Shown one piece after another: positions 22,777-26,807 of a stretch of 64,000 nucleotides of DNA. The translations under genes were made by a program, and so were the position numbers. Origin of the DNA: Tulasnella sp. 424 (lineage: Eukaryota > Basidiomycota > Agaricomycetes > Cantharellales > Tulasnellaceae); contig WSUB01000036.1 in the NCBI GenBank assembly GCA_019633425.1, positions 1 to 64,000 on the forward strand, in the 5' to 3' direction. Below the pieces are notes generated by a model. It had not been told where the DNA came from and did no database searches. It saw nothing but the letters and a program-made list of their open reading frames with translations. The first letter of the stretch is position 1; the number at the start of each line of letters is the position of its first letter.

Positions 22777-25700
22777 TCACTTCTTAGACGCTTCACGGGC
22801 CGCCTTGATCAACGGCGACAACGTCCGAAGCGGTTCCGCTTTCTTGAAGAATGGATGCTGGGGGATTGTAAGGTCAGTTCTGCGCTGTCCGCCACTACTA
22901 GGAAGCAGTGCGCCGAAGACTTGCCTGCAAGAGAGCCGCAGCATCGGGTCTCTTCTCAGCGTCGACTTCCAGTGTCTGGGCGAGGTACTCCTTGAACACG
23001 GGCGACAAGAGTTCGGGGTTGGCGATCTTGGGAGTTCCGTTGGTTGCGATGAGGTACAACGCCTTGAGTCGGTTCTGAGTGAAATATGGAGGTTCGCCTT
23101 CCACCATTTCTACAAATCGCGCGTGACGAGGGTGAGCGGGCGAGTTTTCGCCTGGCGAGGGAGTCACCCACCGATCGCCATGATACCCAAACTCCAGATG
23201 TCGACCTTTGGTCCGTACGCTTTGCGGGTGACGACTTCCGGTGCCATCCAGTAGGGAGTACCGACCATGGTGGTTCGCTTTGAAGAGTTGGGGTCGGAGA
23301 TTTGGGCGCAGAATCCAAAGTCGACTGGAATGGGCGGGGAAAGAGCGCGCGTTTGCGTTTAGTTCATCATCAACTCGACGGCGATGACCTCCTAAGAGAG
23401 CGACTCACTGAGCTTAATATCGCCATTCAGACTAAACAAGACGCTGTCGCTCTTGATATCTCGATGAATAACACCATGTCGATGCAAGTGCTCCAAGCCT
23501 TGACACGTCTCCCTCGAGACTGCAGCCATTTGACCCTCGGTCATCAAATTGTTCGTCACCATATCCGTCAACGAGCCACCTAAAACGCGCTTTCCGCATC
23601 AGTTCCCATCCCCAACAAACGCGGAGATAGAAAAGGTCCTCCAAAGCGCACCTTCCATGTACTCCATAACGACCCACAAGTCGTTCTTGTGCAAGAACGA
23701 ATCGATGTAGTTGACGATGTTGGGGTGCCTTGAAGACCTTATGATCAAGATTTCGTTGATGATGATATGCTTCTTTGGTTGCCTGTCCAAGTCCATTTGC
23801 TTGATGGCGACGCAGAGGTTGCTGCCGACTTCATAAGCGGTGTACACAGTTCCACAAGCACTGCAAAACAGAGAGTGCGGGGAATGTCGTCGTTCGTCAA
23901 GAAAAAGACCCAAGTTTAGAACATGAACGACGCCGTACTCACCCTTGGCCGATCTTGATCAAGTTCCTATACAACCTCGTCGGATCCGCATCCGTGCAAA
24001 TCGCCTTCAGCCTCTTGACGATATCGCCCTCGTCCGCCTTCGGCTTCTCCCTTCTTCTCGGGGTCGCCTGACCCGCACCGGCGTGCTTGGCCAACGACTG
24101 CGCGGCGGGGGATTGCGGTTGAGGAGCGCGAGGAGGTTGAGGTGCCTGACGAGTCGTACTGAGAGCTTTCGACAACGCCGCACCTTTCGCACCTCCTTGA
24201 TCTGGACGAGGCGCACCGGGCTGTCTAGGCTCCTTCTGCTGTTCTCTCGATTTCTCTCGATCCGCCTTCTCCCTATCCCCTTCACCACCGCGCTCGCGGT
24301 CCTTCCGATGCAAGGACAAGGAGCTCATCGACGCCGCAGCTGCAGGCTGCGCAGCGGCCGCCCCAGTGCTGGTCGTCCGCTCGCTCTGACGCGGGCGGTC
24401 GTAATCTTGCGTCCCAGATCGATCTTTGTGCGTGTGCAAGCGGGAAACGCCACCGTCGGTCTTGCTGGCCGATCCTTGTCGGATTTGCTGCGCAGGAGGA
24501 GGGGCCAGGGAGCGCGTGGAGGCGGACCGATCGAGCGTGACGGTCGCTGCTGAAGGGACCAGTGCGCTCGGTGCGGGTCGGTATGGTTGGGGAGTGGACG
24601 TCTCGCTCGTCGCTGGAACGACTTTGGTAAAACGTTTGAGCCTGGGTGGTAATGGTCGGGAAAAGCGCTGTCATAAGATTGAATGCGGGGGTAGGGGATG
24701 GGGGTTGCGTACCAAGTGCAGAGTGAGAGGGAGGGGGTCAGTCAGGAAGTGAAACTTCCATAAACAAAACGGTACTGCGGGGGCTGTCGAGCAGCAGAGC
24801 GCAGGTTACTTACAGGTAGGGGCTGGAAACCTTTTCCTAAATCGAAATTACCATTCGACTGCTGAGGGATAGTAGGGCTGGTAGCCATGTACTTATCTGC
24901 AATCTTTCCGGGAGCACCAGCGGTCTCTTGGTAAAACTTGAAGATCTCGACGGCCGTTCGAGGGCTCTTTTCCTGATCTTGATGAGAGATACCGTTCTCT
25001 TGCAAGATCTCCTGCCATTCCTTGGGCAGGCCGGTGAATTCGCCGGTAGATGAGTTGAAGCCGACGTGGGTCAAGTGAGTGTCATCAAAAGGGCTGCTAA
25101 TCTCGGGTCTCTTGGCGGTGTTGAGGAAGTCTGAGGGAAAGCGAAGAGCGAGTGTATTAGACGCAGCTAGTCGCTCAAAGTGTGTTGCAGCGTAAAGAAG
25201 GTTTTTTTTTCTGACGAGATGACGCACCACTCATGAATGAGAGCATTCCTTTCTTGTTCTTTCCCCGAGTGCTGCTACGAGATCTGCCGACGGCGTTGTC
25301 TCTAGTGAAAGGACCTGGAGGTGGCGAGTCACCTGTATCGAGGGAAGGGGGTGTATACTGATCTGGATTGGCCTGCGGGGTGCTGAGCCTCCTGCTGGAA
25401 GGGTGACTTGATGAGACGATGTCGTTGAGATTAGATCTGTATGGTCTCAGCATAGTTGAGGGAGATGCATGGATGGGACCCTTCGTGAGCTGTTGCGGGA
25501 CGAAGGGTGAAGGGGTTGGATTCTTGATTAAGCGTGGGCCAAGCTCTGTAGTGATCCTGGAATTGTGGTCCACTCCATCAATAGGGAGAAGTGGTATTTC
25601 TGTGGATCTATCGACGAGTTCAATTGGTGGGTATTTTGTCGCTCCGATTAGCGTAGTCACGGAGGGGCGTTTGCTCGAATCGAAATTCCAACACTCTTTG

Positions 25701-26807
25701 ATCACCTCAGACAACATTGGAGGCCACTTCTCATGCTGAGGAAGTCGAGACAGTAATCCTTGGATAGATCCAGGGGCTTGGTTTCGGAGCACTTCAGCGA
25801 TAATCGCACCGTTTGTTTTTACTTCACTGTACGGTTCGATGTTGGTGAAAATCTACGACGGAGAGAAATGCTCTTTCAGGTGACGGAAGCGCGCAAGTGA
25901 TGGAGGTGTCTTACTTCGTAGGCTGTACATGCCCAAGCCCAGATATCACTTGGAAGGGTGTGCTTGCCTTCTCCTTCCAAGAGGAGTTCAGGGCTCATGT
26001 ATCGCAACGAGCCCTTCAAAGCTCGAGTGGTGGTCAGACCGGAGGGACCCTCCGCCTGATTGATAAATGAGGCCACGCCAAAGTCGCAGATTACAGCATC
26101 GAGCTCATCATTTATTAGCACATTTGCCTAGATGTCCAATCAGCGACAATACCCCTGTGCACCATATGGGGCGGGACTGACTGGTTTCAGGTCGCCATGA
26201 CAAATGCGCGGATTAAACTCGTGCAAATACTGCAACCCAGACGTGATGCCTTGTACCTTTGACAGGAAATAGTATCGGGTTGAGCCTTTCTTTAGTTAAA
26301 ATAAACACATGCGTACAAATTTGCGTCGCGTAGCGATGTTAGGTTGATTCTGGGTGAGGTATTGAGAGACGTTGGCGTTGACCATGTATACCGAGATGAG
26401 TTGAGCTATTTCGTAATTTTTGCTCAAGTAGAAGCCCAGAAGTCCAAGAATATTTGGGTGTTGGAGGGTAGCCCATATTTGGAGCTCTCTAGCAAGACGC
26501 TACATAGTACGGTCAGTATCACATTTCCGGTGCTTTGAAACCACAAAGCAAAGAAAAATCAACTGACAAGAGCTAGGCGTTTACGATCGCCTTTGGTTCC
26601 CACTGCGCTCAACTGCTTTACGGCGACGTTGCGCGATGGTTTATCCAATGTGGCCAACATAACCTCTCCATATCCTCCGAACCCAACCGGGTTGTTTTTC
26701 TTAAATTTCAAGCGCTGAGGCTGGATAAAGAGGTGGTTTAGATCCTTGAGTATTGACCGCTTGGAGGAAGAATCAGATGTATGTATATATCCTTCTGCCT
26801 CGAGCAT
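22777..26807 (-). CDS. Dual-kinase fusion: TKL-like kinase, CRIB domain, STE20/PAK kinase
   Basis: Twelve exons (26807-26568, 26499-26317, 26256-26182, 26127-25915, 25852-25228, 25130-24814, 24667-23943, 23860-23652, 23579-23409, 23324-23172, 23109-22925, 22857-22777) close in phase to 1058 residues. Kinase 1 (about 37-310) has [30 protein letters not shown] and MSPELL. After a linker it joins STE20 sequence at [18 protein letters not shown] domain ([15 protein letters not shown], near residue 456), a proline-rich basic linker, then the PAK kinase with GQGACGTVY, VAIKQM, DFGFCAQ and GTPYWMAPE. The PAK catalytic loop reads HRDIKSDS, so the Mg-binding Asn is Ser. One intron has a GC donor (CAG|GCAAGT at 22924). 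The junction lies inside exon 5 near 25440. CRIB domains bind Cdc42/Rac; kinase 2 may be weak or inactive. Confidence 0.72.

Follow-up and report, generated by a model that had tools for sequence, protein, structure and literature searches.

Fungal Ste20 proteins and the other members of the p21-activated kinase (PAK) group have a CRIB domain (the P21-Rho-binding domain, PBD), a linker and a STE20 kinase domain, in this order. Proteins with two kinase domains have also been described. The passages of the Dictyostelium kinome paper on dual-domain kinases name the STE+TKL kinases ZakA and DPYK4, and state that pairings of an active with an inactive domain recur (PMC1420674). Among plant tandem kinase-pseudokinases (TKPs), 40 of 92 were attributed to gene fusion in the part of the survey dealing with their origin (PMC6170490), and Laccaria bicolor is described, in passages on its kinases, as having an unusually large TKL set (PMC2838846). 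Here we describe a predicted gene of Tulasnella sp. 424, located at 26807-22777 on the minus strand, in which a TKL-like kinase is joined in frame to the CRIB domain, linker and kinase of a STE20 protein. It lies in a window of 64,000 nucleotides, by which we mean the whole stretch of DNA analysed (positions 1 to 64,000 of contig WSUB01000036.1, assembly GCA_019633425.1); the contig is called C290 below.

The fusion shares the order of CRIB domain, linker and STE20 kinase with the PAK group, but has a TKL kinase in place of the Ser-rich N-terminus and a Ser at the position of the catalytic-loop Asn. With ZakA and DPYK4 it shares STE and TKL kinase domains on one polypeptide; no CRIB domain is mentioned for these two in the passages concerned, the comparison is one of descriptions only, and an independent origin is expected (PMC1420674). 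Two kinase domains, one of them predicted to be impaired, are likewise found in TKPs (WTK1/Yr15 of plants, for example) and in JAKs, but the part of the survey describing the 92 plant proteins gives no additional conserved domain (PMC6170490), whereas the fusion has a CRIB domain and a long linker between its kinases. The TKL-like kinases of L. bicolor are numerous and, unlike the fusion, have no CRIB-STE20 partner in the passages that describe them (PMC2838846). According to an earlier note on this DNA, no described protein with this order was known to its author. For the kinase pair this goes too far in view of ZakA and DPYK4; with a CRIB domain in between, no TKL-CRIB-STE20 protein was found among the matches listed in a limited search of the open-access literature.

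The gene model consists of 12 exons encoding 1058 residues, with all junctions in phase and no internal stop, exactly as the earlier note had described. Ten of the 11 introns are GT-AG and the last (22924-22858) is GC-AG. This GC donor is not disabling in itself, since about 1% of fungal introns are GC-AG in the figures given in one report's intron section (PMC7072748). The parts of the gene are as follows:

25537-26807, minus strand: TKL-like kinase half, exons 1 to 4 and the 5′ part of exon 5, 85-86% identical to four relatives at C290:183-212 kb
26807-26568, 26499-26317, 26256-26182 and 26127-25915, minus strand: exons 1 to 4, TKL half
25852-25228, minus strand: exon 5, with the TKL end, a patch and the STE20 start
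25451-25528, minus strand: 78-bp patch from a third locus, 86% identical to C290:153762-153839 (plus strand there)
25228-25447, minus strand: 3′ part of exon 5, the rest of STE20 exon 1, beginning RPYR ahead of SNLNDIV
24814-25130, minus strand: exon 6, CRIB domain with its consensus kept (Pfam PBD)
23943-24667, minus strand: exon 7, proline-rich and charged linker reaching the glycine loop of the kinase
22777-23860, minus strand: exons 8 to 12, STE20 kinase domain with HRDIKSDS for HRDIKSDN
23860-23652, 23579-23409, 23324-23172, 23109-22925 and 22857-22777, minus strand: exons 8 to 12 singly
22530-22776, minus strand: duplicated STE20 3′ flank, with 225 of 244 aligned bases the same as in 27450-27701

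A Pfam search of the model returned two Pkinase stretches with PBD between them, in agreement with the linkage of TKL kinase, CRIB domain, linker and STE20 kinase noted earlier. A match to Pkinase_fungal was also obtained with Pfam and, like the fungal-type Ste20 and the short introns, points to a fungal genome. Two protein kinase domains are thus present in the single open reading frame of the predicted gene. The translated TKL half has all of the motifs GxGxxG, VAVK, HGDLKPAN, DFG and SPE. In comparison with the PDB, the structures on top for this kinase were of the TK and TKL groups (EGFR, TYK2, Eph, RIPK3, BAK1, IRAK4 and roco4, among the best 60 of 2513); the label TKL denotes similarity to solved structures, and not a place in a classification tree. 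PBD occupies residues 455-513 (7.7e-20) and is followed by the STE20-type Pkinase at 785-1036, for which PAK1, PAK3 and PAK2 are the closest solved structures (best match PAK1, 4zlo, E 1.3e-123). Six matches were obtained when the genome was searched for the CRIB domain. Three of them are in the STE20 copies of the window, one per copy; C257 has two and C246 has one. The CRIB consensus pattern was matched by the fusion and its intact neighbour and not by the third copy of the window.

The C-terminal kinase keeps the HRD Asp, DFG, the VAIK Lys and APE, but it lacks the complete PAK catalytic set because the catalytic-loop Asn is Ser. This change and a Thr to Ile change before DFG are found in the fusion only, and not in the neighbour or the third copy. 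The corresponding Asn171 (PKA numbering) joins the DFG Asp in metal binding, and the pseudokinase ILK is listed with Ser at this position in the same account, yet further catalytic residues are missing from it as well (PMC4718504, the part on pseudokinase residues).

The sources of the gene were sought by DNA search of its own genome. From 26988 to about 25537 the sequence matches the four TKL kinase genes on the same contig, and from 25440 to about 22531 it is 86% identical to the STE20 gene next to it; a third STE20 copy, at 39.9-42.2 kb, matches this part too. These two copies are:

27702-30767, minus strand: intact Ste20/PAK neighbour of 827 residues in 8 exons, with CRIB and STE20 domains and all 7 introns GT-AG
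39934-42390, minus strand: third STE20 copy, its N-terminus replaced by other sequence and with an in-frame TAG

The neighbour, which had been reported as intact and proved so, is by its sequence the type of gene from which the STE20 half came. Its residues 1-124, the Ser-rich N-terminus, are missing from the fusion; the earlier note had described this N-terminus as replaced. Part of the linker is gone from the third copy, and with it the acceptor normally used by the intron before it; the kinase of this copy keeps the catalytic Asn and the catalytic motifs.

A join near 25440 had been proposed. A fusion join is indeed found there, with STE20-derived sequence starting at 25447, but it is not single, since two joints flank the 78-bp patch. 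The only other genome match found for the patch is 153762-153839, about 128 kb away. There the patch belongs to an open frame of 1103 codons and keeps the frame that it has in the fusion (TIKKRTPSPLVPQQLTNGPVHASPSTM). This proline-rich frame matched no Pfam family and is at most a candidate gene. The chance that both joints would be in frame is roughly 1 in 9. Each piece is about 14-15% diverged from its source, which suggests one episode or events of like age, and no clear microhomology is left at the joints. A simple tandem duplication was rejected as the source of the TKL-STE20 junction, because the TKL genes closest to it are found at 183-212 kb, away from the STE20 copies, and because of the patch from 153.8 kb inside the joint. 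Three stretches on the minus strand are closer to the neighbouring STE20 region than the 86% background, namely 23936-24226 (97%), 22718-22867 (97%) and 22541-22712 (95%). These could be gene-conversion patches.

We infer that the joins arose when replication switched templates among loci on the same contig. In yeast, 26 sequenced breakpoints of segmental duplications gave 13 different chimeric open reading frames (ORFs), with microhomology at the breakpoints, in the results section concerned (PMC2518615). The Tulasnella fusion has in common with these products of microhomology/microsatellite-induced replication (MMIR), as that section presents them, the in-frame joining of ORFs with the parent genes left intact (PMC2518615). 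It differs in being old and natural, in having three donors and a short patch, and in that no clear microhomology remains.

Translation may in fact begin elsewhere than at 26807. The following exon, judged from the relatives, is an alternative:

26819-26890, minus strand: alternative exon 1 (MGQIQSRPQHSDTFGADHELSAPL) ahead of a 59-bp intron (26818-26760), common to the TKL relatives L002 and L005

With the ATG at 26890 and this intron, the model encodes 1066 residues, again without internal stops. L002 and L005 also have the 26890 start; in both, the kinase frame upstream of RSxLKD runs for 25 codons to a stop and has no ATG. A short exon of the form MGxxxS...HELSAPL is present in L002, L005 and the fusion, and the intron between it and RSxLKD ends in AAG or CAG. 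The MGxxxS start of this exon resembles an N-myristoylation signal and is a putative one. The DNA immediately upstream of the fusion comes from another gene:

26992-27448, plus strand: 3′ end fragment of a gene with a FATC domain, 87% identical to C244:24426-24894

The rest of the FATC gene is on contig C244, and a part of the fragment recurs next to the third STE20 copy (39561-39887).

The fusion is therefore confirmed at the DNA level and is richer than first described. What it does is less certain. We consider it an even call that this is a real chimeric gene under weak or failing constraint, whose product would be a TKL kinase that is tethered to Cdc42/Rac and ends in a pseudokinase derived from PAK; that the protein is made and is of consequence seems to us about evenly balanced. 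The gene was formed from duplicated DNA, as a TKL gene broken after its kinase domain was placed in one frame with about 26 patch codons and a STE20/PAK copy. If translated, the product would have 1058-1066 residues, a TKL kinase with the key catalytic motifs, a CRIB domain with the Cdc42/Rac-GTP-binding consensus and a C-terminal PAK kinase predicted to be a pseudokinase or a weak kinase. Most probably, active Cdc42/Rac would then recruit the TKL kinase to the sites of the normal Ste20, and the fusion might also, or instead, compete with its intact neighbour. More tentatively, at somewhat less than even confidence, we would see in it a working signalling protein, in which a TKL kinase has acquired both a module for binding Cdc42/Rac and a pseudokinase scaffold of PAK origin and is perhaps myristoyl-anchored. 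It would then be one of the outcomes of repeated joining, on this contig, of TKL domains to different C-terminal partners (TPR, a second TKL, CRIB-STE20).

The alternative that fares best is a non-functional chimera in early decay, in which the DNA fusion is real and has no selected role, the frame being intact by chance or through gene conversion from the neighbour. We regard this as plausible though short of probable, and the comparison of the copies bears on it from both sides. The three STE20 copies were compared over 585 of 696 codons, any codon with a gap in one copy being dropped, and the counts of changes unique to a copy leave out 4 ambiguous changes and 8 three-state sites. The neighbour had 14 nonsynonymous to 28 synonymous changes and the third copy 83 to 34. 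Neutrality was rejected for the neighbour alone (none of 3000 simulated runs had as few nonsynonymous changes as observed, or fewer). In the kinase domain the corresponding counts were 0:18 for the neighbour (with 2 ambiguous), 17:10 for the fusion and 29:17 for the third copy. Pairwise ratios of nonsynonymous to synonymous rates between fusion and neighbour (0.37 for the whole comparison and 0.16 for the kinase domain) had looked like purifying selection on the fusion and were set aside because of these three-copy counts, 0:18 against 17:10.

Decay is opposed by the reading frame. Fusion-only indels number 3 in 2091 bp of exons, all three of 3 bp, against 13 in 582 bp of introns, of which 10 are not multiples of 3 (Fisher p 6e-7 for exons versus introns), so that frameshifting indels are 0 versus 10; an event here is a run of one gap pattern in the MAFFT alignment, and the intron counts may be inflated. 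The approximately 2 kb of STE20-derived coding sequence are free of stops, for which the neutral simulation gave P 0.09-0.10, and both the CRIB consensus and the TKL motifs are retained.

Several results weigh against a functional protein and are in keeping with decay. The STE20 part of the fusion has 45 nonsynonymous to 21 synonymous unique changes (1 ambiguous), and neutral simulation gave a mean of 45.8 nonsynonymous (P 0.47). The TKL half has 25:14 (neutral mean 27.8, P 0.20), so the replacement rates are neutral-like in both halves; among its relatives the counts are 16:16 in L002 (P 0.009), 41:18 in L003 (P 0.43) and 30:17 in L005 (P 0.16), L004 being excluded because of a frameshift. 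The degraded third STE20 copy has a nearly equal exon versus intron indel contrast (5 versus 13, p 6e-6), and therefore frame retention alone is no proof of function. Homology of the fusion to the TKL relatives stops 92-98 bp upstream of the 26890 ATG, while between L002 and L005 it extends over about 700 bp, and therefore the promoter may be truncated. The loss of the catalytic Asn and the GC donor of the last intron also fit decay, and conversion from the neighbour could account for the stretches of 95-97% identity against about 86% overall. Given the loss of the Asn and the neutral-rate amino-acid changes in the STE20 half, the earlier proposal that one kinase is under small-GTPase control of the other is at most a possibility.

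The selection signals on the fusion are thus in conflict, with few and in-frame exon indels on one side and neutral-rate amino-acid changes on the other. The reading frame is protected, or shielded by conversion, and the amino-acid constraint is weak. We read this pattern as a relaxation of constraint on a protein that may be translated, with early decay as the main rival.

It is improbable that the locus gives two products instead, namely a short TKL protein (462 codons if intron 5 is retained, for example) and/or a CRIB-kinase half begun at an internal Met. Intron 5 has the donor GTGCGT, its retention would lead to a stop about 17 codons into the intron, and Met codons are present within the STE20 part. 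However, the spliced frame is free of stops from the TKL kinase to the CRIB exon, and the matching intron of the neighbour has a like donor (GTGTGT). A mis-assembly of a TKL locus onto a STE20 locus is very improbable even in a region this rich in near-duplicates, since all matches of more than 100 bp to any piece in its own genome are at or below 87%, the neighbour's stretches of 95-97% excepted. Among shorter matches the third copy has the best, with 93% identity over 55 bp, and two mis-joins would be needed within about 100 bp around a diverged patch.

Returning to the chimeric gene, its TKL relatives indicate that it does not stand alone. Read from their RSxLKD codons, three of the four have open frames. 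In L005 the TKL kinase exon stays open through a linker, and a GT-AG intron then leads in frame to the next exon, with which a second TKL kinase begins. This gene is at C290:211.8-209.5 kb, about 185 kb from the fusion, and the catalytic loop of the second kinase reads HGS and not HGD. L005 is therefore a possible kinase-pseudokinase tandem in the same TKL family. In the first kinase of L005, SPG replaces the SPE of the others, and in L002 the DFG motif reads DLG. Similar second kinases follow L002 (182.3-181.4 kb) and L004 (198.9-198.0 kb) and are at most candidates for a shared frame. Within the window, the open frame 44750-43584 weakly matches the end of a TKL kinase domain at 44717-44535, with TPR repeats after it. 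As the TKL kinases of the contig are joined to different partners, the fusion is one of several TKL chimeras and no lone oddity. In view of the L005 gene, which reads into a second TKL kinase, and of the STE+TKL kinases of Dictyostelium, the fusion is not unique in being a two-kinase protein of this kind.

TKL kinase pieces followed by TPR repeats were seen at 45726-43584 (minus strand, one open frame) and at 14130-18070 (plus strand, with a stop between the frames). At 61901-63200 on the plus strand there are pieces of the second TKL type (RGSGGYSDVW, HGDFKT), which share 67% identity with the second kinase of L005 in an overlap of 78 residues. Other features of the window are a local duplication with a spacing of about 1.2 kb at 20645-22524 (pieces of 20645-21313 and 21844-22524) and an NLR-like gene at 35144-38788 on the plus strand, with a NACHT/NPHP3-N ATPase frame followed by a WD40 frame. 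The repeat array of the latter runs from about 37120 to 38581 in units of 129 bp (43 residues), which are 66-82% identical to a reference copy. Frames for PIF1-like helicases and a match to a Plavaka transposase, at 215-2684 and 9301-10467 (plus strand), are mobile-element remains at the left end of the window.

If expressed, the gene would be a three-donor fusion in which a kinase from one family has come under a targeting module taken from another, and in which a catalytic residue has been lost from the second kinase. This route from fusion to kinase-pseudokinase is usually inferred from ancient examples only. Here relatives of all three source pieces are on the same contig, and therefore origin, age and fate are directly testable. 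Even if it is decaying, the locus shows clearly how a chimeric kinase gene was born within segmental duplications.

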